IMG/VR virus record: IMGVR_UViG_3300020154_000003
Location: 1-64,000 of that record
DNA from: a virus
Strand: one strand, 5' to 3'
DNA: 64,000 nucleotides
Below the pieces are notes generated by a model, which saw nothing but the letters and a program-made list of their open reading frames with translations, made no database searches and was not told the DNA's origin. A program made the translations under genes and the position numbers. This document shows positions 7,176-25,793 of this stretch, piece after piece; positions within the stretch are counted from its first letter, which is position 1, and each line of letters opens with the position of its first letter.

Positions 7176-7183
7176 ATAAATAC
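7176..7183 (-). promoter_or_regulatory. Late promoter motif
   Basis: The minus strand reads TAGTATTTATTAGAAAA, a full match to the late consensus. It ends 16 nt before the start codon at 7159. Confidence 0.75.
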
Positions 7184-8191: not shown

Positions 8192-8205
8192 AGTAATATT
8201 TTCTC

Positions 8206-8213
8206 ATAAATAC
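8206..8213 (-). promoter_or_regulatory. Late promoter motif
   Basis: The minus strand reads TAGTATTTATGAGAAAATA, a full consensus match ending 14 nt before the ATG at 8191. It touches the stop codon of the upstream glycan cassette. Confidence 0.75.
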
Positions 8214-8818: not shown

Positions 8819-9837
8819 TAAACTATTTTTGTCTTTTCCAGTATTTTAACAATTTTTTTAGCGGAAAATCCATCGCCAAAGGGACAAATACTATCCTTGA
8901 CCTCAAAATCGATCATCGTTTCCTTAATTAAGGATTCAAGATGTGCTGGTGAGGGGCATAAGGTACTGGTTTGACCCAAAGCTTCTGGCCTTTCCGTCTC
9001 TTTTCGACAAACTATGGTCTTTTTCTGAAAAAATGACGATTCTTCCTGCAATCCACCACTATCAGTCACGACAAATTTACATTTTACTAGAATATTAAGC
9101 AAATCTTCATGATTTAATGGTGGAATCACCTTCACATGAGTCAAAATATCACGATGCTTCATGACATTAGGGTTTGGATGGATCGGTAGAATAAATTCAT
9201 AGTCAGGATATGCTGCTGCGATCCTATTTATCTGTTCAAACCACACATCAATTGAATCGTGGTTCTCGCGCCTATGTAACGTAACCAGTACTTTGTTTGT
9301 ATATTCACACAAATCTTTAAAAGGTAATAAATTATCAAGCACCGTATTCCCCACAATCCATTTTTCACCTCCCACCTGCTCAGATACTAAATTCAGTTCA
9401 TTACTAGGCGTTGGACACAAATGAATGGAGGCTATTTTAGAAATCATCAACCTGTTTGCTTCCTCAGGGAAAGGGTTTTGAAGATCGAATGTGCGCAATC
9501 CAGCTTCAAGGTGAATTACTTTAATTCCGTTGTGAAACGCAGCCAAGGCGACACCTAAAGCAGATGTGGTATCCCCTTGTACCATCACATATTTGTAATC
9601 AAAGTCCTGAAACAATTTAGATGCAGCCACCATTACCGATGACAACACGTTAGTCAAGCGATCAACACGATGAGTTGGTGGTATGTGTAATGAAACATCC
9701 GCACGAACAACATTCAATAAATCCCTATGTTGACCAGTAAATAATGTCTCAAACAAAAATTTTTGATTTACTAATTCATCAATAACAGGCTTAACTTTCA
9801 ACCACTCCGGTCTAGTCCCAAACGCAATGAGAAGCAT
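8818..9837 (-). CDS. wecB: UDP-N-acetylglucosamine 2-epimerase (WecB family, non-hydrolysing)
   Basis: Predicted to interconvert UDP-GlcNAc and UDP-ManNAc, supplying ManNAc for surface polysaccharide. Family motifs are intact: FGTRPEWLKVKPVI at the N-terminus, TGQHRDLL (~34-41), GDTTS with D89, HLEAGLRT with E111, PEEANR with E125/E126 and R129, H188 in TLHRREN, and the UDP-binding DSGGLQEE near 258-265. These correspond to the known catalytic and substrate residues of E. coli WecB. The length, 339 residues, is slightly shorter than cellular homologues (~375). It is embedded in the phage glycan cassette with 1-nt overlaps to both neighbours. Confidence 0.92.
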   Translation of the reverse strand: MLLIAFGTRPEWLKVKPVIDELVNQKFLFETLFTGQHRDLLNVVRADVSLHIPPTHRVDRLTNVLSSVMVAASKLFQDFDYKYVMVQGDTTSALGVALAAFHNGIKVIHLEAGLRTFDLQNPFPEEANRLMISKIASIHLCPTPSNELNLVSEQVGGEKWIVGNTVLDNLLPFKDLCEYTNKVLVTLHRRENHDSIDVWFEQINRIAAAYPDYEFILPIHPNPNVMKHRDILTHVKVIPPLNHEDLLNILVKCKFVVTDSGGLQEESSFFQKKTIVCRKETERPEALGQTSTLCPSPAHLESLIKETMIDFEVKDSICPFGDGFSAKKIVKILEKTKIV

Positions 9838-10319
9838 TATTCTTTTATAAATTTACCTTTATATGTTTCAATTATGTCACTACATATCCCCACTAAGGAT
9901 TCATTGAGAAAAGCATTATGTAGCTTATCGAAAGTCACGTTCTCGCTTTCAGGCAACACTGCAATACTATTTGCTACCGCACGATTGCCCGGATAAACCC
10001 AAACAAATCCTTTTGAAGTTATTGTATACCAATCCGTATTGTGCCAAAAATAATGGAATCGCTCACCGTTATTAACTAAGTAATTCAATGCCTCCTTATT
10101 TTTTGCGTGAATCCAGAAATGTGAATTAGATAAAAATTCAGGTGAGACTTCATATGTCGGTTCATCATGTCCTAAATAAGGCTTGTCCTTATGCAACCAC
10201 AAATCAATTTCAACATCATAACCTGCCATCAAAGCAGTTACGATATAGTTTGGGGAATTCTCCCAACCACTTTTCCCATTAATATTCCCGCGATGTGAAA
10301 TATATTTAAATTGTTCCAT
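9837..10319 (-). CDS. Short glycerophosphodiester phosphodiesterase-like protein
   Basis: Resembles the GDPD/PI-PLC TIM-barrel family. The catalytic signature is visible: ISHRG with H9-R10-G11, EIDLW with E37 and D39, and GHD with H51. The full-length family is usually ~240 residues or more; this protein has 160, so the barrel is compact or incomplete. Such short GDPD-like proteins also occur in capsule clusters, where they may act on phosphodiester-linked sugar modifications. It overlaps the cupin gene by 14 nt and the epimerase by 1 nt. Confidence 0.7.
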   Translation of the reverse strand: MEQFKYISHRGNINGKSGWENSPNYIVTALMAGYDVEIDLWLHKDKPYLGHDEPTYEVSPEFLSNSHFWIHAKNKEALNYLVNNGERFHYFWHNTDWYTITSKGFVWVYPGNRAVANSIAVLPESENVTFDKLHNAFLNESLVGICSDIIETYKGKFIKE

Positions 10320-10638
10320 CTACCACATATTTATCATCTTGTACAGATGGGAGTTTAATCGCAACAATAGCTGCATCAGTTATTGCGCGGAACTCGATTA
10401 TTTCATTTTGAAAAACTTCAATAATATCACCCTCTCCAAAGATTTTATCATTCATTTGCACCTGTCCTGACACCACCACAGTATATTCTTTCGCTATCTT
10501 ATGATAATGTGCGTTATCGACATCGCCCTTCTGATAGTATTTTACAGCAATCTCAAAATCCTTACTATTAACCAGCACCGGATTAAAATTTCCCATGAAC
10601 CAGCCATTAGTAAAGTTTTTCAATTGATGTTTTAGCAT
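10306..10638 (-). CDS. Small cupin-domain protein
   Basis: The 110-residue protein fits a single cupin beta-barrel: motif 1-like KGDVDNAHYHKIAKEYTVVVSG with histidines and a glutamate for metal binding, then motif 2-like FGEGDIIEVFQNEIIEF. Cupins in sugar clusters are often epimerases, isomerases or sensors. The frame extends to a TTG at 10650, but the ATG at 10638 (MLKHQLKNF) is the more natural start. It lies 21 nt downstream of the nucleotidyltransferase. Confidence 0.65.
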   Translation of the reverse strand: MLKHQLKNFTNGWFMGNFNPVLVNSKDFEIAVKYYQKGDVDNAHYHKIAKEYTVVVSGQVQMNDKIFGEGDIIEVFQNEIIEFRAITDAAIVAIKLPSVQDDKYVVDGTI

Positions 10639-10659
10639 ATTATTTAACAAATATACAAT

Positions 10660-11403
10660 TTAATCTAATATTTTAGAGTGTTTTAAAAAATAGTCAAGGT
10701 CTTCGGGTACACCAATACCCCACATCTTTTTAACATCATAAACCGATATTTTATGATTTTCGGGAATAGCTTCATTATATACTGGTGCCACGTAAAATTC
10801 TCCGTTTACACGAATGTTTTTGTTGATCATTTGCTCCGCATATTTGACATAATCTCTTCCCTCTCTCCAAACATATATTCCAACCGTTGCAACTGTCGAT
10901 ATAGGTTCTTTTTCAGCAACCCTTTTTACAAGACCTTCATCGTTCAACTCCACAAAACTCCATTTAGGATGGGTCGATTCAAACGTTAGTACTACACCAC
11001 TTAATTTATTTGACTCGTCAAACTGTATTTCTAAGTAATTAAGGAACTTCGTTGAGTTATATTGAATAATTTGATCTGAATTGGCAATGATTAATGGTCG
11101 ATCATTATTAATATACTCTTTCGCAAGTAATGTTGTACAAGCTGCACCCTCAGTCAGTGAATCTACTACAACTATTGAGCATCCCGGCTTAATTAAATTC
11201 AAAACCATATCCAACTTATATTTTTCATGATGTTCTTTTTGAACTATAAAAACATAGTCACCATTAATAGATATGTTTTCAACAACAACCTGAATCATTG
11301 GCTTATTATTGATCGGTATTAATGGTTTGGGAAAAGTATAACCAGCATTGGCGAACCGTGAGCCTGCGCCAGCCATTGGGATGAGAATAATAGGTTTTTT
11401 CAT
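10660..11403 (-). CDS. Sugar-phosphate nucleotidyltransferase
   Basis: Predicted to activate a sugar or polyol phosphate with an NTP. The diagnostic nucleotide-binding signature IPMAGAGSRFANAGY followed by FPKPLIPI is at residues 8-31, with the substrate lysine K26. Later motifs include a metal-site-like IIANSDQI and WSFVELNDEG. The length, 247 residues, matches the small capsule-cluster group of this family. Its start overlaps the HAD phosphatase gene by 4 nt (ATGA), suggesting consecutive steps of one pathway. The exact substrate cannot be read from sequence. Confidence 0.85.
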   Translation of the reverse strand: MKKPIILIPMAGAGSRFANAGYTFPKPLIPINNKPMIQVVVENISINGDYVFIVQKEHHEKYKLDMVLNLIKPGCSIVVVDSLTEGAACTTLLAKEYINNDRPLIIANSDQIIQYNSTKFLNYLEIQFDESNKLSGVVLTFESTHPKWSFVELNDEGLVKRVAEKEPISTVATVGIYVWREGRDYVKYAEQMINKNIRVNGEFYVAPVYNEAIPENHKISVYDVKKMWGIGVPEDLDYFLKHSKILD

Positions 11404-12044
11404 CTATAAAATCCCTTTGATGCTTGAATGTAATCCAAACGGAATTTTATTGGTTCGTAACGAATTTCACTACTATCTTTTACCTCATACAAATATGCTC
11501 CTGATTTTTTGGCAGCATCGATACCATATTTTGAATCTTCAAAAATCATTGTTTCAAGTGCATCACAACGACCTATTTCCATAGCCAATTCAAACATCTC
11601 AGGATCAGGTTTAGGGTGAATTACATTTTCATTTGAAAGATAATGATCTACATAATCCATCAAACCAGTCTTTTCAAGTGCTGCGCGAATAGTTGCATGT
11701 ATTGAATTTGATGCCACCATTATTTGATACCCATCTTCTTTCAATTTGCGTAATGCTTCGTTAACGTGTTCATCAGGTAATAGAGTGTCCTCAATTACTT
11801 GTGCTGTAATTGCTTGCTTACGATCCCAAACACGTTCATGTTCACTGAGTGGCAACCCTCTTTCCTCTGTAAGCATGTATAATTTTTGTTTTGTTGGAAG
11901 TCCATCATATCTACTTTCATGGTCTTCACGGTTGATGATGAATTTAGGATCAACTTCACCCAATGCCCGATTAAGTGCTTCATAGTGTACGTCCTTCAAT
12001 TCAATCAACGTACCATCCATATCAAATATTAATAATTTTATCAT
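11400..12044 (-). CDS. HAD-superfamily phosphatase/phosphoglucomutase-like
   Basis: Haloacid dehalogenase-like hydrolase. Motif I is DMDGT with D8 and D10, motif II lies around VASNS, the conserved lysine is in HPKPDPEMF, and motif III is FEDSKYGIDAAKKSG. The cap lies between residues ~15 and 90, typical of the beta-phosphoglucomutase/phosphatase subfamily (214 residues, normal length). Paired with the nucleotidyltransferase, it probably acts on a sugar or polyol phosphate. It overlaps that gene by 4 nt and lies 14 nt below the 12059 gene. Confidence 0.85.
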   Translation of the reverse strand: MIKLLIFDMDGTLIELKDVHYEALNRALGEVDPKFIINREDHESRYDGLPTKQKLYMLTEERGLPLSEHERVWDRKQAITAQVIEDTLLPDEHVNEALRKLKEDGYQIMVASNSIHATIRAALEKTGLMDYVDHYLSNENVIHPKPDPEMFELAMEIGRCDALETMIFEDSKYGIDAAKKSGAYLYEVKDSSEIRYEPIKFRLDYIQASKGFYR

Positions 12045-12058
12045 TTGGTTAAATTTAA

Positions 12059-12784
12059 CTAACTATTAGTCCCTCTTGTATAAGGGTTAATTCCATATTT
12101 TTTAAACAATTCCTTCAACTCATTAGAATATTCATCAGTATTCCACTTACCCTTTACTACGGCAGTTGCTATATAGGGATATATCGAACTATCAAAATGA
12201 CTAGTACCCTTTCGTGAAGAGCCACCATCATCAATATAGTAACCGAAGATTTTTCTTTCTATACAAACTCGTTTTGCGTCAACCTCAAACTCCCATACGT
12301 TCCTACCTTTAGAATTATCATATACTTCTCTAAGTTTTTCAAAATTCCAGATTGTCGGTTGTATTGCGAACACACAATCAAACTTATTGGTGATTATTTT
12401 TAATTCAGGATAAGTCGCATCAGATAAGCCAAACGTAATCCCTCCTTTAATCAGTTTAACAAAATACTTATCCTCAATATTTGCTTTTAAATATTCAGTA
12501 AATACTTTAAGCTTATCATGGTTTGGAGTATCATACAAAAACATATCTTCATGTTGGAAAATACAATAATCGACAGTATTAATCTTTTTCAATGCTGATG
12601 ACATCCTTTCTCTATATGTGAGTTTATCATCATATAAAATAACTTCATAATTGATGGGAATACCAGCGACCCATTTATCTACTATGATGTAATGTTTATC
12701 CTCAGGGAAATACTTATTCATCTGACCAAAATATAATGGCCAAATGTCTTTGTAATCGCTATGAGTATAAACTATGAAATTCAT
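12059..12784 (-). CDS. Glycosyltransferase-like protein (GT-A fold suspected)
   Basis: Divergent glycosyltransferase candidate. The 241-residue protein begins with a beta-strand (MNFIVYTHSDY) and has a possible metal site in CIFQHEDMFLYD, where the DxD motif would stand, followed by a W-rich acceptor region. No exact family match was recognised. Its position, overlapping the clear GT2 gene at 12781-13440 by 4 nt, is the main support for a role in glycan assembly. Confidence 0.55.
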   Translation of the reverse strand: MNFIVYTHSDYKDIWPLYFGQMNKYFPEDKHYIIVDKWVAGIPINYEVILYDDKLTYRERMSSALKKINTVDYCIFQHEDMFLYDTPNHDKLKVFTEYLKANIEDKYFVKLIKGGITFGLSDATYPELKIITNKFDCVFAIQPTIWNFEKLREVYDNSKGRNVWEFEVDAKRVCIERKIFGYYIDDGGSSRKGTSHFDSSIYPYIATAVVKGKWNTDEYSNELKELFKKYGINPYTRGTNS

Positions 12785-13440
12785 TGTTTTAATGTGTCTT
12801 TGGCTTTTCTACCCCAACCAAGATGTCTCACATAACCTTGATCAAATATAGCTGCACGGAAACCTAATTCACCATACTTGACACTAACCCAAGGCTCTCC
12901 ATCAAATTGTTCTATTGGTTTAATTAATTCATAATCACGTAATCTTCTCAAACCCGGATTGAAGCTAAACCCATTCCACACACTGAAGTAATGCATTGCA
13001 AGCAGTCTAAATTTCTTACCTCCAATGCTACTGGCATAGTATTGCGGATCAAGAGGATGTCCATTAGTATCATTGACTTCCCTCAACCATACTTGGATAA
13101 TTTTTTTATTAGACTCCAGAACTTCTAAACTGTCCTCAATGAACCCACTTCGATAAAATTCCCAATCTTCTTCACAATGAAAGATGTATTCAGTATCGAC
13201 ATGAGCATATGCCAAGTCAATAGATTTCATTTGACCTAGATTTTTAGGATTGTCAATCCACACAAAATTATGATCTTTATACTTCTCTTTTAAATGATCG
13301 TTAATATTTGGTTTACCTGAATCTTCAATTACCACATACTTTTTAATTGGATATGTGTTAAACTTGAAAAAGGAATCAAGAGTTTTTTCTAACAAGTCAG
13401 GTCTATTGCACGATGTCAAAACGAATGTTACTTCTTTCAT
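12781..13440 (-). CDS. Family 2 glycosyltransferase
   Basis: GT-A inverting glycosyltransferase. The N-terminal nucleotide-binding strand VTFVLTSCNRPDLLEKTLDS is characteristic, followed by YVVIEDSG, NPKNLGQMKS and an acidic metal-binding site at FHCEEDWEF (~100-110). The C-terminus ends in RHLGWGRKAKDTLKQ. The length is 219 residues. Its stop abuts the start of the 12059 gene, and its own start overlaps the next GT by 1 nt. Donor and acceptor are unknown. Confidence 0.8.
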   Translation of the reverse strand: MKEVTFVLTSCNRPDLLEKTLDSFFKFNTYPIKKYVVIEDSGKPNINDHLKEKYKDHNFVWIDNPKNLGQMKSIDLAYAHVDTEYIFHCEEDWEFYRSGFIEDSLEVLESNKKIIQVWLREVNDTNGHPLDPQYYASSIGGKKFRLLAMHYFSVWNGFSFNPGLRRLRDYELIKPIEQFDGEPWVSVKYGELGFRAAIFDQGYVRHLGWGRKAKDTLKQ

Positions 13441-14180
13441 TAAATAACTGGTTTACTTTTAGTTAAATACTCATTGAAGGCTTTTGTTACTTCCTGATCT
13501 TCATAGAAATAGTGTCTACCAATACCAACTTTTCTATTTGCATCAGGTATTCGAGATTTCGATCTATGAACTTTAAATAGTAGATACTCTAAAGACAATC
13601 CTTTATAGTGTAATAATTTTAATCCACCATAAGCAGTAGCTTTCACATTCCCCTTGGGATCAGAATAGTGACATCCCATACCATAATCGATTTCATCTAA
13701 ATCGTCAGGGGAGAATATTACTTGCTTATCCATCATTTCAAATTTGCATCCGTTTTTTACTCGCTCAGTTAGCTGCAAATCTGGTTTAAATTCAGGAAAC
13801 ACGTTGCTATACATATTATATCCTTCTGGTTTGAAGATTGTTATTCCTGCCTTCTTTTTTTCATCCAAAAATTGATGAATATTCTCGTGGTATAAGAATT
13901 CATCCAAATCACAAACAATCACATAATCCACGTTCTGATTTTTAGAATCTTTCCATGCATTATTTTTTATTTTTGTGAACACAAGATCATCTTGTTTGTT
14001 ATTCGACTCATATTGTCTGATTTCATGATCTACACCAGAATTTTTGATGATCTCAATACTACTATCAGTGCTAAAATTGTCGTAGAAAAAGAACTTTGAT
14101 ACGAAAGTTCTGTAGTGATTTATAAAAAACGGAAGTAAATCTTCCTCGTTATAAAGAATTGTATATAGATGTATTTTCAT
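13440..14180 (-). CDS. Glycosyltransferase, GT2/GT92-like
   Basis: The N-terminus IHLYTILYNEEDLLPFFINHY, an IYDNFSTD-like FFYDNFSTDSS, and the metal site CDLDEFLYH (~109-117) mark the group of 'YNE' glycosyltransferases related to GT2 and GT92. A histidine-containing GMGCHYS and a C-terminal HYKGLSLEYLLFKVHRSKSR fit this group, which is common in LPS and capsule clusters. The length is 246 residues. One-base overlaps on both sides indicate translational coupling. Confidence 0.75.
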   Translation of the reverse strand: MKIHLYTILYNEEDLLPFFINHYRTFVSKFFFYDNFSTDSSIEIIKNSGVDHEIRQYESNNKQDDLVFTKIKNNAWKDSKNQNVDYVIVCDLDEFLYHENIHQFLDEKKKAGITIFKPEGYNMYSNVFPEFKPDLQLTERVKNGCKFEMMDKQVIFSPDDLDEIDYGMGCHYSDPKGNVKATAYGGLKLLHYKGLSLEYLLFKVHRSKSRIPDANRKVGIGRHYFYEDQEVTKAFNEYLTKSKPVI

Positions 14181-14986
14181 TAAACAAATTTTGATTTTTC
14201 ATATAATCCAACTCTCATAAAAAACCATTTATGATATAGATGATTGTTAATTATCTGCCAAGTAGGATATTTTATTAAGTTGGTTGTTTTTGTTGGTTGA
14301 AAAAATTCATTACTAAATTCATCGTTTGCATTACTGTCGGGCCAACCATTAATTAATGCCTTGTGGTATTCACTCCCAATTTTGAAGTCATGCATAGCAT
14401 GTTCTTGCATCATGATGAGAATATTCATATTTTTTGAATTAGAATAAAACCATTGATCAGCATACCCTGCATTCAATTGTGCCCACATTGAAGAATAAAT
14501 GTACTGCATATCGGCCTCAGGCATAAAATTCATTAAAGAAACATTATATCCTCTGTGCAAACCACTTCTATGTCCCAAATCAAAACGAGCAGTGACAACC
14601 ACATCATATTCAAAATCATATTCCAATTCGTGAGTATATTTAAATATGATTGACGCACCTCTACTGGTATAAAAGCTTAATGACGATTGGATAGTACAAT
14701 CTTTGAAGATTGTTTCTGATCTGTTGAAATCTTTATCAATATCACTTTGAGACAACCCCCTTTTTTTAGCTAAAGCTTCGAAGTCAGCTTGTTTATCGAA
14801 AACAGCAAATTTTGGATTATAAAGACCTCTAATTTTATCTTCATTCTCCAAATCCCATGAATGTATAAAGACATCAACGTTAGGATATTTAAGTATATTA
14901 TCCTTAATGTAATTATACCCCTTCATTCCAGCATTAGAATCTCCCTTATTGTTGAAGTACCCGTACAAACAAAGTGCTATTTTCAT
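14180..14986 (-). CDS. Glycosyltransferase-like protein of the 'VDVFIHSWD' type
   Basis: The N-terminal MKIALCLYGYF strand and the NVDVFIHSWDLEN motif near residue 40 resemble a poorly characterised family of LPS/capsule-associated putative glycosyltransferases. Further features are YNPKFAVFDKQADF and a possible acidic site VTARFDLGHRSGL at ~130. The length is 268 residues. It overlaps the aminotransferase gene by 4 nt. An enzymatic role is inferred from family resemblance and context only. Confidence 0.6.
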   Translation of the reverse strand: MKIALCLYGYFNNKGDSNAGMKGYNYIKDNILKYPNVDVFIHSWDLENEDKIRGLYNPKFAVFDKQADFEALAKKRGLSQSDIDKDFNRSETIFKDCTIQSSLSFYTSRGASIIFKYTHELEYDFEYDVVVTARFDLGHRSGLHRGYNVSLMNFMPEADMQYIYSSMWAQLNAGYADQWFYSNSKNMNILIMMQEHAMHDFKIGSEYHKALINGWPDSNANDEFSNEFFQPTKTTNLIKYPTWQIINNHLYHKWFFMRVGLYEKSKFV

Positions 14987-15621
14987 ATTGTTCTATATTT
15001 TTTAAAAACATCAAATTCAGTCAAGTCTCTATATCCCAATCCATCATTTTCCCCAAGATCGGGCATAGACGCAGGGTAATTAAGCATTAACGTCAATCCC
15101 CTTGCAGCTTCTTCAGGAGTCATATAGAAATTATAACCAGTTAATTTGATATTATCTTCCATGTAATTCTTTTCAGAGCGTCCTTCATATCTCATCTGCT
15201 TGAACCATTCAATTGCATTCGGATCATCGAATAGTATAGCACCACCCTTACCGATTGGTAATTGTTTCTTTATGTGGAATGAGAGACACATCATTGATCC
15301 GGGGATATACATGTCTGAGGTAAGCCGCTTTGCACTATCGTAAATCGGATATGGATCAAGTCTATACAATCCACTCCATTCCATATCTTTAAAAACAGGT
15401 ATACCACCAGACAAAATCACAGCTTGCGCTACAGATAGATATGTGCGCTTAGGTACAATAACGTCCTTTCCTTGCACTTTATGATAAAGTAATGAGAGTA
15501 AGAGTGCGTTAGTACAACTATCTACTACAACACAATATGGTGCCCCTGTATACTCGCACAGTTCTTCCTCAAACATTTGATTAACTTTGAAAGGATTATG
15601 TTTTATACTTTTAAGTGACAT
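14983..15621 (-). CDS. Short DegT/DnrJ/EryC1-type sugar aminotransferase
   Basis: PLP-dependent nucleotide-sugar aminotransferase relative. Conserved elements are CVVVDSCTNALLLSL, an aspartate in IYDSAKRL (D95) and the PLP-lysine motif SFHIKK (K119) followed by LPIGKGGAI; NFYMTPEEAARGL also matches the family. The protein has only 212 residues against ~370, and nothing beyond this last motif is present: the usual C-terminal domain is missing. No remnant is seen downstream, where the next gene starts inside its stop. It may be a compact active form or have lost activity. Confidence 0.7.
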   Translation of the reverse strand: MSLKSIKHNPFKVNQMFEEELCEYTGAPYCVVVDSCTNALLLSLLYHKVQGKDVIVPKRTYLSVAQAVILSGGIPVFKDMEWSGLYRLDPYPIYDSAKRLTSDMYIPGSMMCLSFHIKKQLPIGKGGAILFDDPNAIEWFKQMRYEGRSEKNYMEDNIKLTGYNFYMTPEEAARGLTLMLNYPASMPDLGENDGLGYRDLTEFDVFKKYRTI

Positions 15622-16047
15622 TTATCTATTAACAATTTTATAATATTTGAATTCCTCATCCTGTCCAACTTGAGTAAAACCAGATGAAATAAACATTTTA
15701 TGACTTGGAATATTATTGTGTTTAACTTTGGCGACAGCGGTAGGGTGTACTTCCTTAATTTTATCTAACATAAAACTACCTACTCCTTTACCATGAATGT
15801 CAGGTATGACTGCGATTCGGATGTCGTTATCAACAACACCCACAAAACCTACTGGAATTTGATAATCAATACCTTCTAGGTGGGCCAAACAGATGAAATA
15901 ACCATCGTTATGCTTTTCCATGTAAGCATTCTGTTGTTCGACAGTTATTTTAACTTGTTCTACAAAAGAATCCTTTATTCGATCATCGCTTCTGAGCGTT
16001 CTTATGAAATCCCAATACTTTGGTTCATTTTTTACGAATTGTAACAT
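15622..16047 (-). CDS. GNAT-family N-acetyltransferase
   Basis: Predicted acetyl-CoA-dependent acyltransferase, 141 residues. The GNAT fold is visible: VGFVGVVDNDIRIAVIPDIHGKGVG with the acetyl-CoA loop (Q/R-x-x-G-x-G/A type, here IHGKGVG), then AKVKHNNIPSHKMFISSGF, the usual C-terminal signature. It immediately follows the aminotransferase (no gap), suggesting that an amino sugar made there is N-acetylated here. That pairing is an inference from order. Confidence 0.8.
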   Translation of the reverse strand: MLQFVKNEPKYWDFIRTLRSDDRIKDSFVEQVKITVEQQNAYMEKHNDGYFICLAHLEGIDYQIPVGFVGVVDNDIRIAVIPDIHGKGVGSFMLDKIKEVHPTAVAKVKHNNIPSHKMFISSGFTQVGQDEEFKYYKIVNR

Positions 16048-16048
16048 T

Positions 16049-16816
16049 CTACCATATGCAAGTTTTTTTAAGTGATTCCCCGCCAGTTAAGTAACCTCTT
16101 AAACCCTTCATACCCATATATGGATTTAATGTTGTACCAATATCAATATATGTATTATCTGGTGCTATCTTAAAAAGTTCATACTGCAATACATTGCTCA
16201 ATGATGATGCTGAAAATAGGAAAATATGGTTTTTAATCTCATTATCCATCACCCATTTTTTCATCGTCTCAATGAGATCATAGTTATTTATTATGCAGTT
16301 TGCTCCTACTCTAAAATCTTTTTTTACTTTGAAAGGAAGTGTATCTAGGGTTGCATTTTCATTGACCACATACACAATACCGTCATTTTCTCTTTTCTTT
16401 AAAAGAGGAACAATGTGTTCCATGAAGAGAGGATAATTTGAATTAACCCACAAATTCGACCACGTTAGATTTTGATGATCGCCACCATACCAATCAACCA
16501 TTTCCTGAAAATCGCTATATCCAACGCAGCATCGACAACTCAGACCTACAAAATAATTATCAGCCTTGTGCTGGTATGATTGCATTAAATGATCGCTAAA
16601 AAATTTATGCTGTTTAGGGTGAAAGTGTTTATGATCTTCAGGAGCATATCTGCCCGGACTCTTTGAGTTACCTATCACAAAATGATCATCAGCTAACTTC
16701 AATTCTTGTTCTTGAAGTATTCTAAGTTCACCATCGCTAAAGCGTAGGAATGCGAAATTTTCTTTATTTGCAATCTTACCATGAAGCAACCAAAAATGTT
16801 TTTTAAAATCTTTCAT
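16049..16816 (-). CDS. GT-D-type glycosyltransferase (DUF1792-like)
   Basis: The N-terminal FLRFSDGELRIL (residues 23-34, with D28 and E30 as the D-x-E metal site) matches the GT-D fold family first recognised from DUF1792 proteins. Later motifs are VVNENATLDTLPF, a helix with VGANCIINNYD, and YIDIGTTLNPY near the C-terminus, also typical. The length, 255 residues, is normal. It lies between the GNAT and a GT2 gene with 1-nt gaps. Confidence 0.75.
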   Translation of the reverse strand: MKDFKKHFWLLHGKIANKENFAFLRFSDGELRILQEQELKLADDHFVIGNSKSPGRYAPEDHKHFHPKQHKFFSDHLMQSYQHKADNYFVGLSCRCCVGYSDFQEMVDWYGGDHQNLTWSNLWVNSNYPLFMEHIVPLLKKRENDGIVYVVNENATLDTLPFKVKKDFRVGANCIINNYDLIETMKKWVMDNEIKNHIFLFSASSLSNVLQYELFKIAPDNTYIDIGTTLNPYMGMKGLRGYLTGGESLKKTCIW

Positions 16817-16817
16817 A

Positions 16818-17552
16818 TTAATGGTTTTTTATTATCCAACCATTATTACAACATTCCCGAACAATATGATCTCGAACATTATTATGATTGTTATTATGTA
16901 GCCAGCTTGCAGATGCATCATTACCGTGCTTAAATCCAAAAGCAGGATCACAACTCCATAAAGTAGTGTCATCTTCAGGATGAGGTGGAACCCATGTTTT
17001 TATTTTTCCATATTTTTGAAGTAAATATGAAAACATAATGTCCTCACCATTTTCCCAAGAAACAGGTTTTTCATACCACATGTATTTACTCCACGTTGAT
17101 TTCCAAAACCAAGCATGTCCTACCAGATCAACATCAGTAGGTATAGTACGTCTCACGCCATTCCACCCTATCTTTTGATTAGGGCCATACGAAGTAGTGT
17201 TAGGTAACACCACACCACTACCTCCAAGTAAACCATCGACTTGATCCATTGTCTCAAGGCAGTTTTTAAACCAATTTACTCCGGGCAGAACGTCATCGTC
17301 AAAGAGCGCAACATATTCAGTTTGCACCAACATTGCTGCAGCAAATCTGCCGTGGAATTTTGTATTTTGGTTACAAACAAAGATTCTATGACTAGAATTT
17401 TTAGGTGCAGCCTGCTTGGCAGTTCCTTTATTGTACCAAACCCATATATTTTCATCCCGTACTGGAACTGATTGATTCTTTATTGCCTCAATCTGAGCCT
17501 CAAGAGTATGTGCCCTGTTGTAAACATTCAAAATGACGGTTATCTCGCTCAC
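16818..17552 (-). CDS. Family 2 glycosyltransferase
   Basis: N-terminal TVILNVYNRAHTLEAQIEAI is a standard GT2 nucleotide-binding start, and ALFDDDVLPG (~94-103) is the DxD-type metal site. Downstream, VSWENGEDIMFSYLLQKYG carries the acidic ED motif of the acceptor/catalytic base region. The length is 244 residues. The start codon is GTG at 17552; no alternative ATG precedes the first strand. A 13-nt gap separates it from the next GT. Confidence 0.82.
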   Translation of the reverse strand: MSEITVILNVYNRAHTLEAQIEAIKNQSVPVRDENIWVWYNKGTAKQAAPKNSSHRIFVCNQNTKFHGRFAAAMLVQTEYVALFDDDVLPGVNWFKNCLETMDQVDGLLGGSGVVLPNTTSYGPNQKIGWNGVRRTIPTDVDLVGHAWFWKSTWSKYMWYEKPVSWENGEDIMFSYLLQKYGKIKTWVPPHPEDDTTLWSCDPAFGFKHGNDASASWLHNNNHNNVRDHIVRECCNNGWIIKNH

Positions 17553-17565
17553 TACTACCTATCCT

Positions 17566-18219
17566 TTATATAAGATTATGCTTTCTCATCACTATCATCG
17601 GTGCTTCATTTTCATTATTTGCCAATGAAGTAATTCCTTCATCCAGATAATATGCATAAAACATATTATTCTCTCCACCGAGTGCTATTCCTTCATGACC
17701 GTTTTTAACCATGCTCAAATACATATCCCAATCTTGAAGTCTTTTCAATGATTCGTCAAATCTTGGAAATGCTTCACGCTTCATTAATGACATTGTTGAG
17801 ATGTAATTACCTCTTTTCAATTGAGTGCTATTGAACGCCAACGTAGGTATTTTAAAATTACCTCTCATTGGATGTGTTTGAGGATGAAGAACTATTCCAT
17901 GATAACCAGTATAGGCAAATGATTTATCGGGATTATCTTGTAATAAATTGAATAGATTTTCTAAATAATCTTTACGCAAGACAATATCATCATCACAAAA
18001 GAATATATATGGTTGTGTTGATAGATCAAAACCATCATTTCTTTTCTTAGGCGCACCACCTATATTGTCATTTACGATAATTTCTGCAGGTCTATTTGCC
18101 TCAAGCATGGGCAACACAATATTTTCAAAAAAATCCCTTCTCTTGGAACCTAATGGAACAATAAACGATACTGGTAAACAGTCATCAAAATCCTCAAATA
18201 ATTTATCAACCGTAATCAT
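17566..18219 (-). CDS. Family 2 glycosyltransferase
   Basis: PVSFIVPLGSKRRDFFENIVLP forms the first strand and helix. EIIVNDNIGGAPKKRNDG and FFCDDDIVL give the nucleotide- and metal-binding sites of the GT2 family, and RLQDWDMYLSMVKNG matches the conserved (Q/E)DWD acceptor motif. The length is 217 residues. It overlaps the upstream gene by 4 nt counted from the longest upstream frame, so it is translated as part of the same message. Substrates are unknown. Confidence 0.82.
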   Translation of the reverse strand: MITVDKLFEDFDDCLPVSFIVPLGSKRRDFFENIVLPMLEANRPAEIIVNDNIGGAPKKRNDGFDLSTQPYIFFCDDDIVLRKDYLENLFNLLQDNPDKSFAYTGYHGIVLHPQTHPMRGNFKIPTLAFNSTQLKRGNYISTMSLMKREAFPRFDESLKRLQDWDMYLSMVKNGHEGIALGGENNMFYAYYLDEGITSLANNENEAPMIVMRKHNLI

Positions 18220-18932
18220 AGTATTATTTTTGCAGGCAAGTCATCTTTATATAATTCAACAAATAACTGTCTATTCTCTTCCCACTCTGAATTGGTCTCA
18301 CCAACTGATTTATGCATCACACTAATACGATCAACAACACCAATATTGCAGCCTTCCAAATAATTCCTAAAACAGAAAGAGATGTCGTATAAATGAAATC
18401 CCTTAAACCTTTCGTCAAACATCTCTGCGACAGTTCTACCATTAACAGCCATAAAAAGACCATCGATGGTAACAACTTCTTTAACCCCTGAGATTTTTTC
18501 TGAATATATGCTTTCCCATTCACGTAACCCGTTGGTGTGCCATACACGACCAAACATTTTACTGTGATTCATTTCCTTTCCATCAGGAGTTAGCCACCAA
18601 CATCCATGTGAATTAAGTTCAGTCGTACCAGCAATACCTATGATGTCGAAATATTGATATTTAAACAATCCAAGCAGTATGCGACCCCAATCTTTAGTTT
18701 TGAAAACAATATCATTGTGACAAAACACAATAATTCCATCGCCTCTACCAATTTCTTTGATATGGTTCCAACCTAAATTATAAGCTTCAGTCAAAGAGTA
18801 TTGACGTTTATTTACAATACAATGTACATAAACATCGACCTGACCGACTGTTTCTTTAACATGTTTAATGAATTCATTATTTTCATCATCGGAAAGATGA
18901 CTACTGAATATTATTGATAATTTACTTCTCAT
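18216..18932 (-). CDS. Glycosyltransferase with StrF/GT2-like fold, first gene of the cassette
   Basis: Begins MRSKLSIIFSSHLSDDENN and contains SLTEAYNLGWNHI, an FCHNDIVF metal-site region, GLFMAVNG and GFHLYDISFCFRN, the pattern of the GT2-like group that includes the StrF domain. The frame extends to a TTG at 18950, but the ATG at 18932 is preferred (238 residues). It is the first gene of the sugar cassette; a Bacteroidota-like -7 element and a small hairpin lie just upstream. Confidence 0.72.
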   Translation of the reverse strand: MRSKLSIIFSSHLSDDENNEFIKHVKETVGQVDVYVHCIVNKRQYSLTEAYNLGWNHIKEIGRGDGIIVFCHNDIVFKTKDWGRILLGLFKYQYFDIIGIAGTTELNSHGCWWLTPDGKEMNHSKMFGRVWHTNGLREWESIYSEKISGVKEVVTIDGLFMAVNGRTVAEMFDERFKGFHLYDISFCFRNYLEGCNIGVVDRISVMHKSVGETNSEWEENRQLFVELYKDDLPAKIIL

Positions 18933-18947
18933 TGTTTGCCTTAAAAG

Positions 18948-18955
18948 CAAACATA
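18948..18955 (-). promoter_or_regulatory. Possible -7 element of the glycan cassette promoter
   Basis: The minus strand reads TATGTTTG, an exact TAnnTTTG match, 15 nt before the ATG at 18932. No TTG stands at the expected upstream distance, so it is only half a promoter. The following GTTTGC-ttttaag-GCAAAC forms a 6-bp hairpin directly before the start codon and could modulate translation. Confidence 0.35.
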
Positions 18956-19282: not shown

Positions 19283-22198
19283 TTAAGGTTTAATGGCTTC
19301 AGTGTTAGCATTTGACTGACCACCTGTTTGAGATGAATCAGTTATTTTTGATCCATTATTGGCTTCTATTTGTGCGGATTCAGCGATTCTAGCAGTCTTG
19401 TAAACACCAACAGGATAATATGTCGAATTTGCGTAGTAGTTGAAACTTTCAGCATTCTGTAGAACATCAATGGCAGACTTCAACGATTGTCCACCAATTA
19501 CACGCATAGTAATGCTTATGTCAGCAATCATAAACTGCATACCCATGCCTTCAGGATTCATGTCCCAAGGAGCGTCAGTATAATCAAAATCAATACTATC
19601 AATGATCACCTTCGTGTGAAAGAAATCACCAATTCTCAACACGCATACTGGTGGTCTTCCGAATACTGAATTACGAGCAGCAGGAATACCCTGACTTTCG
19701 GTCGAATCCAATACTGTTGCGTTACCCTGACGTGTACACTGTTGTAAGAATGTTAATCTTCTATGAAAATCTTCGGGTGTCTGCGAATGAAATACTGGTG
19801 ACAGTGTGCGTTTTTCTGCAGCTTCGAATCCAGTATATTCTTTATCGTTAACATTTTTCAAAACAAACAACCCATCGTTGTTTTGGAAGTTTTCAGCTTC
19901 AGCAATTAATCTCTTATTTGCTTCAATCTGTTCAAGAATTTTATTTCTATCGTTTTTCTGTTGTTCAGTTAATTCAACCTCCTTATATCTAACCGCTCCG
20001 TTTCTAACCAGTACTACCTTTGCATTTCTCTCTGGTTTAACATCCGATGCATACGCAAATTCTGCTTGCGCACCTCTGTCTGAACCATTGGTTGAACCTG
20101 ATGCAACTTTAATTACTTTCACACCAGCTTCTTCCAGCGTTTTACCATGTTCAGTTTTAAACTTTGTTTGAATATATTCATACAACGCCTCAACCCTTCT
20201 TCTTGATAAATCTAAATTATATTGATACTGTTTTGTTTTATCCACATATAGTTTCGATGCAGAACCAACAAAATTTAATGTTACTAAGTCCAATTCACCA
20301 GTATTTGGGTTAAGTACTGATTGAACGAAGTCAGTCACTGTAGAATCGAAACCAACATTTAATCCATCATCGTTGGGTTCGTTACCATCGTCAGTACCGT
20401 TTTCATACGAGCCATCAGGATCAACAACATCCACGTCATTAGGGAAATAATACGTAACATATGTTCCAGATTTAATTACTGGTGTCTGTTGAATTTTATT
20501 TGGTGTAATGGTCTGTAATTGTGCCTCAAGCCTAGAATTTTCAACTTTCTTAGCTTCAATGTCAACGTTCTTCAACTCAGAAGCACTTAATCTACCACCG
20601 AAAGCAAAAAATTTAGCAGCCTCATTATGGCTTCTACCTCTAATCTGTGGTGGATAATCGATAATTAATTTAAATCCTAATCTTGCTATACGCTCTGATG
20701 AACTATATGTATATATAGGTTCACCTCTACCGATGAAGGTTGTAGTTTCATGCTTCGCAATCGAACTTTCACTTAATTGGATGCCGTAAGGAGGAAACCA
20801 CATCACTCTCCCCATATTTTCACCTACTTCGCTCAACGGAACTTTTGTTCCGAAGGCATCACCCAAATATCCTTTGCTGTTTAATCTAAATGCAAGGTTT
20901 TCGATACTAAACATCATGTTCCTGTTGTCGATAACATTTTTCTCTTTATCGAAAATTGGATGCATCTTAGGAATCACATATCTATTTATCACCGATTCTT
21001 TAGGCCCATCATAAATGTTGTTACCATTAAATCTGATCGCTTTTTTATAATTGTTGTAAGGGTCGATAATATTTTGCTGTCTTTCAGTACGAACGTTACC
21101 ATCATTGTCTCTTGTAAGTGGCGAACCATTGTACATAGGATTTCCGTCCTTGTCATACCACTTCTTTTTCGTCTGGTCGATAGATGAGTTACCACCTCTG
21201 GCTTGCATCAAGGCTCTGGTATAAGCCAGCATACCCGTTCTAATGCCGAATTTAGAGGCCATCGTATTTGCACCGTCTCTACCCCAAACAACCTGACCAT
21301 TGACGTTATCCACGCCAAAGCCATAGCTATTATCAACAAAGTCAAAATCTTTGTCCTTAGGTTGATTTGGTAAGTTCTGAGCAGTGTTTCCAACGTAGTT
21401 GGTAGTCTTACCCAACCTACTTTTGTGATTTGCACTACCATATTCAAGATTGTTCTGGCCTTCGATACTTTTAAGATCGGGTATTTGATATTCATCAACC
21501 ACCGTCATAGATGCCTCAAACCCGTTAGGGAAATTTTCAGGGTCATCAGTAGGAAATAATACACGCTCATACCATTCACGGCCAGCAGGGATTATTGACA
21601 AACCTTGACCGTTGGTTGTAGATATAAATGCACTATCACTAGGCTTATATAGGTTTTTATTTAAACTTTCATAAAGAAAATTCAACACCCCTTTACCTGT
21701 GTTTCTCACCAACTCGTTACGCATCATTCGGAATTCTTCGTTGGTTCTGGTTGGGCTTAATGGTGAGGTCACTCGTTGATTACCAGCAATTCTTTCAATG
21801 ATATTTTCAACTGTGGTATTATCCTCATCACGAGTAATACGATAATCTACACGTTTTGTAAATAATTTTGTATTTGGATTACCATCAAAAAGATTGTTGA
21901 AATTTATAGATGGTAAACCAGCAGTAAGGGCGTTTTGTGTCACTCTTTGAGCAAATTGCTTACCTAATTGCTCGATTCCGATCTGTGCAATAGGTGTATT
22001 TGGCCCAATCATCCTACCGATAACCGTATTTTTAAGGTCAAAAGACTTGGTTGGGTTGAAAACAGCAGAAATTCCGTTAATAGCCTTAATTAATAACGGG
22101 TTGTCAATCGCATAAGGATCATTTGGAGTGTATAAGTTTCTGGCTACCAAATTTTCCCTTAAATTTTTTAATTCTTGGCTGTCTTTTAATCCGGGCAT
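19283..22198 (-). CDS. Large late tail/baseplate protein with an internal OmpA-like domain
   Basis: A 971-residue protein, not matched to a T4 gene by eye. The N-terminal ~600 residues are beta-rich and contain many YSS/GR/RxG-type segments typical of phage tail proteins. At about 626-730 there is an OmpA/MotB-like peptidoglycan-binding pattern: LNFVGSASKLYVDK, then YNLDLSRRRVEALYEYI, an ASGS segment and ERNAKVVLV where OmpA has NRRVE. The C-terminal ~200 residues resemble a structural domain (VCVLRIGDFF, DFDYTDAPWDM). A late-promoter motif lies 16 nt upstream. A cell-wall contact role during infection is inferred. Confidence 0.65.
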   Translation of the reverse strand: MPGLKDSQELKNLRENLVARNLYTPNDPYAIDNPLLIKAINGISAVFNPTKSFDLKNTVIGRMIGPNTPIAQIGIEQLGKQFAQRVTQNALTAGLPSINFNNLFDGNPNTKLFTKRVDYRITRDEDNTTVENIIERIAGNQRVTSPLSPTRTNEEFRMMRNELVRNTGKGVLNFLYESLNKNLYKPSDSAFISTTNGQGLSIIPAGREWYERVLFPTDDPENFPNGFEASMTVVDEYQIPDLKSIEGQNNLEYGSANHKSRLGKTTNYVGNTAQNLPNQPKDKDFDFVDNSYGFGVDNVNGQVVWGRDGANTMASKFGIRTGMLAYTRALMQARGGNSSIDQTKKKWYDKDGNPMYNGSPLTRDNDGNVRTERQQNIIDPYNNYKKAIRFNGNNIYDGPKESVINRYVIPKMHPIFDKEKNVIDNRNMMFSIENLAFRLNSKGYLGDAFGTKVPLSEVGENMGRVMWFPPYGIQLSESSIAKHETTTFIGRGEPIYTYSSSERIARLGFKLIIDYPPQIRGRSHNEAAKFFAFGGRLSASELKNVDIEAKKVENSRLEAQLQTITPNKIQQTPVIKSGTYVTYYFPNDVDVVDPDGSYENGTDDGNEPNDDGLNVGFDSTVTDFVQSVLNPNTGELDLVTLNFVGSASKLYVDKTKQYQYNLDLSRRRVEALYEYIQTKFKTEHGKTLEEAGVKVIKVASGSTNGSDRGAQAEFAYASDVKPERNAKVVLVRNGAVRYKEVELTEQQKNDRNKILEQIEANKRLIAEAENFQNNDGLFVLKNVNDKEYTGFEAAEKRTLSPVFHSQTPEDFHRRLTFLQQCTRQGNATVLDSTESQGIPAARNSVFGRPPVCVLRIGDFFHTKVIIDSIDFDYTDAPWDMNPEGMGMQFMIADISITMRVIGGQSLKSAIDVLQNAESFNYYANSTYYPVGVYKTARIAESAQIEANNGSKITDSSQTGGQSNANTEAIKP

Positions 22199-22214
22199 GT
22201 AGTTTACTTTTCAC

Positions 22215-22222
22215 ATAAATAC
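22215..22222 (-). promoter_or_regulatory. Late promoter motif
   Basis: The minus strand reads AAGTATTTATGTGAAAAGT, ending 16 nt before the ATG at 22198. Full consensus match. Confidence 0.75.
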
Positions 22223-22270
22223 TTGACTTATTTTTTAATAAAATTTGCATTATTCAAATTCTTTAAATAA

Positions 22271-22527
22271 GATTGCGAGACATAGTGGGCGGGTAAACAC
22301 CATTGGCACTATGTGATTAGTTCAAAGTATGCTACCAAGGGGGAATTAAGATAAGCATACACCCACTCCTAAATCCTGAAGGGTTCTTAATCGGTAAATA
22401 GGAAATTATCGTAAGTAGCAGGAGAGAGTTTGATACCTATATACAAACTTGAATACGGATACCTCGTAATTCACAGGACTAACCTATAATAGAATATTAT
22501 ATATTTTTTTATAGGGGAGTCCTACCT
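22271..22527 (+). ncRNA. Candidate structured non-coding RNA
   Basis: The 389-nt gap between divergent genes (22199-22587) has no credible ORF but is dense in inverted repeats: CATAGTG 22281-22287 with CACTATG 22307-22313; GTATGCT 22327-22333 with AGCATAC 22354-22360; TCCTG 22374-22378 with CAGGA 22419-22423 enclosing CGGTAA 22392-22397 with TTATCG 22406-22411; GTTTG 22428-22432 with CAAAC 22444-22448; AGGACT 22475-22480 with AGTCCT 22518-22523 enclosing CCTATAA 22483-22489 with TTATAGG 22509-22515. One G-T pair favours the plus strand. AGTGGG (22284-22289) can instead pair with CCCACT (22362-22367), an alternative fold. The sequence is visibly less AT-rich than its edges. No known RNA class was recognised. 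Confidence 0.5.
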
Positions 22528-22587
22528 ATGAAGCCGTTTCCTTTAATCCTTATTAATCTTATATAGTTATATAATACTCAAAAACAT

Positions 22588-23046
22588 ATGTTAAAAGTAT
22601 ATACTGATGGTTCTTGTTGGCCAAACACTGGTGAAGGTAATGGAACATATGGTTTTTTAGTTGTTGATAACAATGAAAACGTCATCCACTCGCACATTGA
22701 TGGTCGGGAGAAAACGACAAACAACCGAATGGAATTGCTTGGAATTATCTCGGCATTTAAATACTTAAATGCTAATCACGGAAGTGTATCAAACATAACG
22801 ATTTTTTCTGATTCGCAATATTGCGTAAAAGGATTCAACACTTGGTATTTTGGATGGATAAAATCTGAAACTAAATTAAGTAAAATTAAAAATTTGGATA
22901 TGTGGCATTATCTGCACGGCCTGCGTTCTCCAAACATTGAATTGAAATGGGTAAAAGGTCATGCATCAAATAAATTTAATAACCTTATCGATGAATTGAT
23001 AAGTGAAGAATTTGCGAAACGATATGGAACAAAACCTAAGTACTGA
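22588..23046 (+). CDS. rnhA: Ribonuclease HI
   Basis: Predicted to cleave the RNA strand of RNA-DNA hybrids. It has the complete active-site set of the family: D7 (YTDGS), E49 (RMEL), D75 (FSDSQY), H125 (VKGHAS) and D135 (LIDEL). With 152 residues it is the normal length of bacterial RNase HI. It is distinct from the FEN-type RNase H at 2174-3223, so the phage has two unrelated enzymes able to remove primers. It is the first plus-strand gene after the structured gap. Confidence 0.9.
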   Translation: MLKVYTDGSCWPNTGEGNGTYGFLVVDNNENVIHSHIDGREKTTNNRMELLGIISAFKYLNANHGSVSNITIFSDSQYCVKGFNTWYFGWIKSETKLSKIKNLDMWHYLHGLRSPNIELKWVKGHASNKFNNLIDELISEEFAKRYGTKPKY

Positions 23047-23332
23047 AAAAATATTTCGAAAGGTATTATTATCTGAAAAATTACCTCCTTTAGATAAATA
23101 TGTTCCCATGATTGATGATCATGATGAAATTATTATGTATAGAAGAATTGAAGTCCCTATACTTGGAAGTAGTAATATGTCAACTTTTTATAATATGCGA
23201 GATTTGGCAGGGGATAATACTCCACATGATAACCATCCGATGATTTATTGGCTTGAAGAAGTAACTATTGATGAGTTACTTACAACTTCCTCGCGGCTGA
23301 AGTACCTTGTTGATGTCTTACGGACTGAATAA
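23024..23332 (+). CDS. Small unknown protein overlapping RNase HI
   Basis: A 102-residue frame from the ATG at 23024; the frame extends to a GTG at 23003. No family was recognised. It has no signal peptide or membrane segment; a central EVPILGSSNMSTFYNMRDL segment looks ordered. It overlaps the end of the RNase HI gene by 23 nt, so it is likely coupled to it. Its last 53 nt are antisense to the 3' end of the tape measure gene. Confidence 0.6.
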   Translation: MEQNLSTEKIFRKVLLSEKLPPLDKYVPMIDDHDEIIMYRRIEVPILGSSNMSTFYNMRDLAGDNTPHDNHPMIYWLEEVTIDELLTTSSRLKYLVDVLRTE

Positions 23333-25793
23333 CTGCTTCCCTACCAATATCGAGAACCTTAACCAATCTTTCACGGTTAATCTCAAGAGTAATATCACTC
23401 TTAATTGAAACATTTTTATCCGCAAACTCAACTTGCAGAGGTTTGCTTAATAATGATTTTAACTCAGCGAACATGCTGTTGGAATCGATCTTAGTATTTG
23501 CAATATTTTTTATTGCACTTTCCACTTTTTCAAATTGTCCTGCATTAGCATTAAGAACGACACCGATGTTTTTGAAAGCATCGCCAACCCTTTCAATATT
23601 TTTAGCTTGTGTTCCGATTGCAAGTATCATTGCTAACGCACCTCCACCACCGATAGCACCTAAAATTCCACCAGCAGCTAATGACATTGTGGCAGCACCA
23701 ATCGCAGCAATACCTCCTGCAATTCCAAGTAATTGTTCACCACTTGTAGACTTCGAAAGATCGGCTAACCCTTTCGACATATATCCGATACCAGCACCAG
23801 CGATACCGATAGCAACGCCAATACCTAAGAGAGCACCAGTTATGATTGCAATACCGACCACAGATGTTTCTGCAGCCTTACCTAAAAGTACCAAGCTTAC
23901 AGCCATTAATGGTACTGCAATGCTAATTCCTATTATGGAAAATTTAAGTGCATCTAATTGTTCGGGATTTAAGTCCTTCAAGCTTTTCGCTAAAAATCCA
24001 AACCCTGCTGCGGCAGCACCAATTCCAATACCTGCACCAGCAGCAGCTAAACCAATTGCTTTAAGATTACCAGCCATTGCGCTACCGCCTTTACCAGCAA
24101 CTTTTTGCATACCTCCACCCATGAGACCGCCACCACCTGCAGGAGATGGTGAACTACCTCCTTTTGATTTAAGCATCCCACCGATACCACTCATCATCGG
24201 GCCAACGGTGTTGAATAACTTACCAGCAGCAAGTAAAGTGATCGCTGCACCACCGATGCCTTTGATCCAGCCTTCACCCATCCAATCCTTTAACTTATTG
24301 ATCTTTTGTAGAACCCAATTAACTCCCTCCAGTACAGGAAGAAGAACAGATTTCATTTCGAGCATAGTATTTTTCATCACTTCCTCGAAATTCTGTGAGT
24401 CAATACCTCTTTGTTCTAAAGTTTTTTGTTCTTGCTTTAAAAGTTTAATATCGGACGTAGCTAACTTTGAAATGTCTTTTTGCGCACCATTAACCATCGC
24501 AAAGAACTTACCAGTCTTACTATCGAATTTTGCAATACCTTCGATGTACTCTTGCTCATCCTTAGTTAAGTTCAAACCTAAAGTTTGCTTTTTCATGGCC
24601 TGAACCTGTGCGACTCTACGGGCAGATTCTGCTAAATTTTCATATGACACTCCGAGAGCATCAGCAGCCTGACGTAATCTGTCCTGATCCTGTGCAGTTA
24701 CTGCGAAATCGAATCCGTCTTCAGTTTTACGCATCGTAGCCATACCCTTTGTTAGTTGGGTCAACTTCTTAGCATATTCTGCAGGATCATTTCTTGAAAG
24801 GAATAGTAATTCAAATGGGTCTGACTTTGCAAACTCACCACCTAACACATTTAATTGTGAAGCCATCTCAATAGCACCTTCCAAGCTTCTGGCCATCTTT
24901 GCACTATTGATCGAATCATTAATATCTAGCTTGAATTTCTCTGAGTATTCACTCATTTTAGCCATACCTTTAATACCATCTCTGAAAGAGAACGTGTTAA
25001 GGGTTTTGAAGTTCTGACTTATATTTTTTAATACTTTGGTTGCATTAATACCTAGTCGCTCTGATGAGTCAACAACTCCTTGTACAAATTTTTGACTTCT
25101 TTCAATACTGACACCTAAATTATCAAATTGTCCAACAAGTTTTCCAGCTTGATCAACACCTAAGGCTGTACCCTTTCCAATACTTGAAACTAACTTGAAT
25201 TCTTTCTCAGAAAGTGCTACTGTTCTACTTGTTTCTTCTGAATATGCTGCTTGAGCCTTTGCTAATTCAGCAATAGAAACACCCAATCTTTGAGAATACG
25301 TTGCAGCATTCTGCATGTTTTGTCTTAAGTCGTCTGCCTTACCTGCTGACAACCCTAATTCAAGCGTTACACCTCTGATTGCTTTATCGGCATCCATGAT
25401 GTAACCAGTCATCGCACCAAAACCAAAGTTTCTATCTCCAAAACTGGCAATGGAGTTCTTTATATCTCCAACGACTTTTTCTTGTTTTCTATAAGTTTTT
25501 AGTTGGTTTTCTAGTTGCTTATCAAGACCTTTTGCAGCAATGATTTGCTGTTTTAGATTAGCTAAAGCAGTTTGAGATAGTTTACCCCTACCGCTAACGT
25601 GTCGATTTAATCTATTCTCTAACTTTTCAAGTTCTCTGGCGACTGATAGTCTTTCAAGTTCAGTATTGGCAATATTTTTCTGGAAACTACTCTCAAAGCC
25701 TAAGCTTTCGTTAATCTCCTTCATTATCCGTGCCTTTTCCTCCAACGCATTAGTTGATAGTGGAGTGCCTGAAACTTTTTGCTTTTTAGCCAT
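23280..25793 (-). CDS. Tail tape measure protein
   Basis: Sets tail length and occupies the tail tube lumen. The 837-residue protein has the usual build: an N-terminal helical, Q/K/E-rich region (~1-130) with coiled-coil character, a central helical part, and a long glycine/alanine-rich hydrophobic stretch with several possible membrane segments (~515-735; for example LAAAGAGIGIGAAAAGFGF). A short beta-rich tail follows. It lies directly downstream of the frameshifting chaperone gene, the classic place for a tape measure, and is preceded by a late promoter. T4 gp29 has 590 residues. Confidence 0.85.
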   Translation of the reverse strand: MAKKQKVSGTPLSTNALEEKARIMKEINESLGFESSFQKNIANTELERLSVARELEKLENRLNRHVSGRGKLSQTALANLKQQIIAAKGLDKQLENQLKTYRKQEKVVGDIKNSIASFGDRNFGFGAMTGYIMDADKAIRGVTLELGLSAGKADDLRQNMQNAATYSQRLGVSIAELAKAQAAYSEETSRTVALSEKEFKLVSSIGKGTALGVDQAGKLVGQFDNLGVSIERSQKFVQGVVDSSERLGINATKVLKNISQNFKTLNTFSFRDGIKGMAKMSEYSEKFKLDINDSINSAKMARSLEGAIEMASQLNVLGGEFAKSDPFELLFLSRNDPAEYAKKLTQLTKGMATMRKTEDGFDFAVTAQDQDRLRQAADALGVSYENLAESARRVAQVQAMKKQTLGLNLTKDEQEYIEGIAKFDSKTGKFFAMVNGAQKDISKLATSDIKLLKQEQKTLEQRGIDSQNFEEVMKNTMLEMKSVLLPVLEGVNWVLQKINKLKDWMGEGWIKGIGGAAITLLAAGKLFNTVGPMMSGIGGMLKSKGGSSPSPAGGGGLMGGGMQKVAGKGGSAMAGNLKAIGLAAAGAGIGIGAAAAGFGFLAKSLKDLNPEQLDALKFSIIGISIAVPLMAVSLVLLGKAAETSVVGIAIITGALLGIGVAIGIAGAGIGYMSKGLADLSKSTSGEQLLGIAGGIAAIGAATMSLAAGGILGAIGGGGALAMILAIGTQAKNIERVGDAFKNIGVVLNANAGQFEKVESAIKNIANTKIDSNSMFAELKSLLSKPLQVEFADKNVSIKSDITLEINRERLVKVLDIGREAVIQSVRHQQGTSAARKL

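Follow-up and report, generated by a model that had tools for sequence, protein, structure and literature searches.

A structured non-coding RNA in a recurrent slot between tail genes of large T4-related phages

An ORF-free gap between two tail genes of a large phage holds a structured RNA with a conserved fold on the plus strand, no open frame and no tie to the RNase HI gene beside it, and most relatives of this phage bear an RNA in the same slot. The DNA that we analyzed, hereafter the window, comprises bases 1-64000 of the 366-kb virus record IMGVR_UViG_3300020154_000003. We favor, with a probability of roughly 0.6, the reading that this RNA, which we term type A, is an independently transcribed, trans-acting non-coding RNA gene of ~270 nt, in a clade of jumbo phages related to T4 that has a dedicated slot for it between two tail genes.

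The genes around the slot encode T4-like tail and baseplate proteins (T4_baseplate, 1.3e-8; sheath). One border is a 971-aa gene with no family match, whose baseplate-like role we infer from its neighbors, and the other is an 837-aa gene whose equivalent in Flavobacterium phage immuto is annotated as the tail tape measure; the RNA runs opposite to both. Because the baseplate-hub protein finds its nearest cultured-phage match in Flavobacterium phages (~35% identity), the window probably belongs to a large phage infecting Bacteroidota. Neither the 971-aa protein nor the RNA has a credible match in INPHARED. A sequence-only reading of this DNA had described an ORF-free gap among short, AT-rich ones, and this description stands: the gap (22199-22587) contains no plus-strand ORF of at least 40 aa, gaps in the window have a median length of 32 nt, and GC is 0.29 in intergenic DNA, compared with 0.42 in the RNA core. 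Elsewhere among the tail genes, at 8213-18950, we noted by eye a run of glycosyltransferase-, nucleotidyltransferase- and sugar-enzyme-like ORFs, which suggests that the phage makes a glycan modification.

Taken singly, the window sequence exceeds chance only modestly. All the inverted repeats listed in the sequence-only reading are present at the helices given in Table 1, including the nested AGGACT/AGTCCT and CCTATAA/TTATAGG pair. The RNA contains five perfect stems of at least 6 bp, whereas dinucleotide shuffles contain 1.5 and reach five in 6 of 300 cases, and its minimum free energy (MFE) corresponds to a z score of -2.46 on the plus strand and -1.12 on the minus strand. It is a homologue, adding to this modest signal, that makes the observation decisive. 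A search with the 971-aa gene yielded three relatives, one of which, IMGVR_UViG_3300035701_004790 (L002; 65% identity to the window in the flanking protein), has an alignable RNA in the same slot.

Positions 22272-22426 of the plus strand align with the L002 slot. In a MAFFT alignment made from sequence only, helices P1, P2, P3 and P3a show 11 two-sided compensatory changes in 26 pairs, with 98% of cells paired, so that the covariation by which the earlier reading had proposed to judge the helices is present. P3 was picked with both sequences in view; nine two-sided changes remain when it is left out. Sliding the pairing partners by 1-3 columns reduces the 11 changes to 0-1, and RNAalifold, unaided, recovers P1, P2 and P3a with nine two-sided changes. 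The L002 RNA also folds better than its shuffles (z = -3.44). The wobble pairs in the alignment comprise three G-U and no A-C on the plus strand, which is therefore the RNA strand, as a wobble in the window had led the sequence-only reading to favor. The type A family consists of these two sequences, which score 167-180 bits against model R1 by construction, and no other members were found: four DNA patterns searched in IMG/VR and two in GTDB genomes returned only L002, the remaining hits being coding or failing R1, and R1 run over 44 whole records of relatives gave nothing credible (one match at E 0.9).

Table 1. Features of the slot and its borders in the window. MFE, minimum free energy.
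Feature	Coordinates	Strand	Evidence or remarks
971-aa baseplate-like structural gene	19283..22198	-	slot border; orthologues in L002, L003, L004 and ~30 loci
ATAAATAC on + (GTATTTAT on -), leader/promoter-like motif of the divergent 971-aa gene	22215..22222	-	marks 5' side of slot
Possible type A promoter, TTG 22223-22225 and TAAAATTTG 22239-22247	22223..22255	+	weak, non-consensus spacing; by positional analogy with type B
Type A non-coding RNA, conserved extent	22272..22540	+	L002 alignment, compensatory changes
5' ATTGCG	22272..22277	+	invariant with L002
P1 hairpin, 22280-22287/22307-22314 (8 bp)	22280..22314	+	8/8 pairs retained; 3 two-sided changes
P1 internal element GGGTAAACACC	about 22291-22301	+	invariant with L002
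P2 hairpin, 22327-22333/22354-22360 (7 bp)	22327..22360	+	4 two-sided changes; 1/7 pairs lost in L002
ACCCACTCCTAA	22361..22372	+	invariant with L002
P3, 22374-22378/22419-22423, encloses P3a	22374..22423	+	2 two-sided changes
P3a, 22392-22397/22406-22411, loop TAGGA	within P3	+	2 two-sided changes; 1 pair lost in L002
P4 hairpin, 22428-22432/22444-22448, loop ATACCTATATA	22428..22448	+	window MFE
P5 hairpin, 22451-22457/22465-22472 (one bulge), loop GATACCT	22451..22472	+	inverted repeat; same motif as P4 loop
P6 two-part hairpin, AGGACT/AGTCCT (22475-22480/22518-22523) enclosing CCTATAA/TTATAGG (22483-22489/22509-22515)	22475..22523	+	window MFE
RNase HI gene	22588..23046	+	PF00075 5.6e-29; missing from L002 slot
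Tape-measure-like 837-aa gene	23280..25793	-	other slot border; orthologues at same place in relatives

Beyond the invariant elements in Table 1, AAGGGT is shared with L002. RNAalifold proposes a pairing of ACCC (22361-22364) with GGGT (22381-22384), both sides of which are invariant, and together with P3 this predicted pairing could form an H-type pseudoknot. Helices P4-P6 are less well supported than P1-P3a. In L002, P4 is formed by TTAATG/CATTAA around the same GATACCTA loop, P5 retains its loop and only part of its stem, and P6 retains the lower stem GGACT/AGTCC with a different upper stem. The extent first proposed, 22271-22527, is mostly right; conserved sequence runs from ~22272 to ~22540 (CCTATG..TTTCCT), slightly past the proposed end. 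The sequence-only reading had also suggested a fold switch at 22284-22289. The alternative pairing of AGTGGG (22284) with CCCACT (22362-22367) does exist in the window, but the corresponding AATGGT of L002 cannot pair with CCCACT, and the competing P1 covaries; we dropped the switch. A closing helix in the window MFE structure, ATTGCGAG/CTCGTAAT, is not retained in L002 and was likewise dropped.

The position of the RNA directly upstream of the RNase HI gene and in the same orientation, as originally described, would suit a cis-acting leader or riboswitch of that gene, which starts 47-60 nt past the last helix. The L002 slot, however, keeps the RNA with no RNase HI gene and no co-oriented ORF of at least 50 aa after it, and the slots of the type B RNA described below have neither RNase HI nor a common downstream gene. 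A leader function is thus very improbable: the adjacency stands, the functional linkage does not, and the RNase HI gene, being missing from L002, is a passenger of the slot. With RNase HI as query, no relatives were found.

No known RNA class accounts for type A, in line with the initial description. Rfam 15, searched with the whole window, returned no family at gathering score, including GOLLD, ROOL, pRNA, introns, RNase P, 6S and riboswitches; for the slot at E up to 10, every match was on the minus strand, far under the gathering score and attributable to chance. ARAGORN found no tRNA or tmRNA gene in the window. With the compensatory changes and the G-U polarity, these searches uphold the proposal of an unclassified, structured plus-strand non-coding RNA. 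Phi29, one of the small podoviruses, has a packaging RNA (pRNA), a small structured RNA of a tailed phage that binds the packaging motor and that DNA packaging needs; cmscan found no counterpart of it in the window. The most similar cases in kind, for which we claim no homology, are GOLLD and ROOL and an RNA of phage ICP1. GOLLD and ROOL are ornate large RNAs of phages and prophages, of unknown function, and GOLLD accumulates in lytic growth (PMC12286853). Like the window RNA they are phage-encoded, ORF-free and highly structured; unlike it, GOLLD often exceeds 800 nt and both often lie near tRNA islands, whereas the window RNA is shorter, has no tRNA in its window and matches nothing in Rfam. 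ICP1 produces an abundant ~800-nt non-coding RNA of unknown role from the ORF-less gap between gp139 and gp140 (PMC7567579). The two RNAs, compared by description, share an origin in an ORF-less phage gap, but the ICP1 RNA is longer, belongs to another host group and adjoins a lysis cluster.

To place the slot in its clade, we used 80 loci from a baseplate-hub alignment search. Nearly all complete slots (~30 relatives) have an ORF-poor gap at the same place, mostly of 300-500 nt, and these gaps have in common a conserved sequence, which we term type B, on the strand that carries the window RNA. Of 22 distinct slots, 18 contain type B as judged by model R2; six of these loci (L066, L068, L079, L081, L082 and L086; E 3.5e-17 to 0.002, the models having short calibration) played no part in building the model. 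The 3' domain of type B (alignment A6) comprises hairpins H1 and H2, the latter enclosed by a closing helix, and stem H3. In a MAFFT alignment whose helices were named after the sequences were seen, 12 pairs are changed on both sides, and none of 500 shuffles reaches the score; shuffle controls for both types ignore relatedness, whereas the slid controls do not. Wobbles again favor this strand (41 G-U vs 10 A-C). Type B has no match in Rfam and none by blastn in INPHARED. In L086, at 8150-8327, the distance from type B to the baseplate-hub gene is retained, with an extra ORF inserted between the RNA and the 971-aa homologue.

Types A and B occupy the same slot on the same strand, are of similar size and have covarying hairpins, among them tandem hairpins with one loop motif. 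They share no alignable sequence or helix set, however. Searches of the type B loci and of their complete records with R1 gave no credible match. R2 reaches at best 11.3 bits in the window slot, where the helices are broken, and at best 7.2 bits in L002. Type A could either have replaced type B or be a far-diverged form of it. Descent of type A from type B as a fast-evolving orthologue, which is compatible with a non-coding RNA gene, is a serious contender at somewhat under even odds. Besides slot, strand and the paired hairpins with their repeated loop, it draws on possible intermediates: L003, about as near to the window as L002 (64-67% vs 65-75%), has neither type whole but carries a motif like the type B core (p 0.002), and the type B 3' motif is present in L065, a close relative of L004 (p 0.002). 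Against it, the window and L002 contain neither motif (p 0.1-0.7), and neither model detects the other type. The L004 and L065 motifs look like decayed type B RNA. The L004 slot holds a GIY-YIG homing endonuclease-like ORF. In L003 (a 371-kb phage), the same slot holds, at 3506-4000 on the minus strand, a stretch of 495 nt that is poor in ORFs and foldable (z -2.0), with an HNH ORF after it; the stretch has no Rfam match and is possibly a third RNA type.

These ORFs, together with RNase HI and the variation of RNA type between near relatives, could instead indicate an insertion-tolerant slot in which a mobile element has left a relic or RNA part, associated with an intron, HEARO or a homing endonuclease. 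Yet the Rfam models of group I and group II introns and of HEARO give no match, no ORF accompanies the RNA in L002 or in most type B slots, and type B is vertically conserved over wide protein divergence. We regard this origin as unlikely, and the HNH and GIY-YIG ORFs are passengers like RNase HI. Retention of an ORF-free RNA slot while the RNA type changes suggests selection for having an RNA there. Because A and B are not alignable, a function common to both is argued from position only; that the slot serves one conserved RNA function tied to the tail genes, such as tail assembly or measuring, with the A, B and L003 forms diverged or swapped, is a long shot.

Orientation against the tape-measure and baseplate-like genes, conserved with the position throughout the clade, also invites an antisense or interference role, in which the RNA would limit read-through of the tail operon or pair with structural-gene mRNA crossing the slot. 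Such a role needs complementarity alone, which is automatic, and leaves a conserved fold with compensatory changes unexplained; moreover, smaller relatives have no gap at all. We consider it improbable. The slot position shows no gap in Flavobacterium phage immuto or Microcystis phage Mel-JY01, and cultured Flavobacterium phages that are related but fall outside the clade do not have the slot.

Independent transcription is suggested for type B by a promoter-like sequence, TTG-N20-TAnnTTTA, upstream of 15 of 17 type B copies with a fixed N20 spacing (background, 0.38 per kb). It resembles the established Flavobacterium sigma-A box TAnnTTTG (PMC9723704). This consensus is absent from the window and L002, where the window offers the weaker candidate in Table 1. 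By extension from most type B copies, host RNA polymerase would transcribe the slot RNA early. Type A would then adopt a compact shape, with the P1 and P2 hairpins, a P3 domain that may include a pseudoknot, tandem GATACCT-loop hairpins and a 3' hairpin, and may act in trans as a scaffold RNA. Its loop motif GATACCT occurs twice, as does UUCGNAGAA in type B, and through such duplicated loops the RNA could hold two molecules of one protein, from phage or host. A CsrA-type sponge, with the GGA loops as binding sites, is another conceivable reading. At least two covariation-supported families outside Rfam are thereby added to the few structured RNAs of large phages, and position offers a rule for finding more: the gap between tape-measure-like and baseplate-like genes, on the opposite strand. 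A 'gap' at 754-1440, considered as a second RNA, looks coding and is conserved as coding in relatives.

We rejected CATAAATAC at 22214 as a T4-like late promoter of the RNA because this motif precedes the start codons of opposite-strand genes by 13-17 nt throughout the window. In coding-strand orientation, AGTATTTAT (TTTC..ATAAATACT on the other strand) stands ~13-17 nt ahead of many phage start codons, with sites at 7176, 8206, 22215, 25809, 41602/41652, 46349, 53893 and 62953 in the window, and it is also present at the start of the 971-aa gene in most relatives. It probably serves the phage as a promoter or leader element and is inverted with respect to the T4 late TATAAATA.
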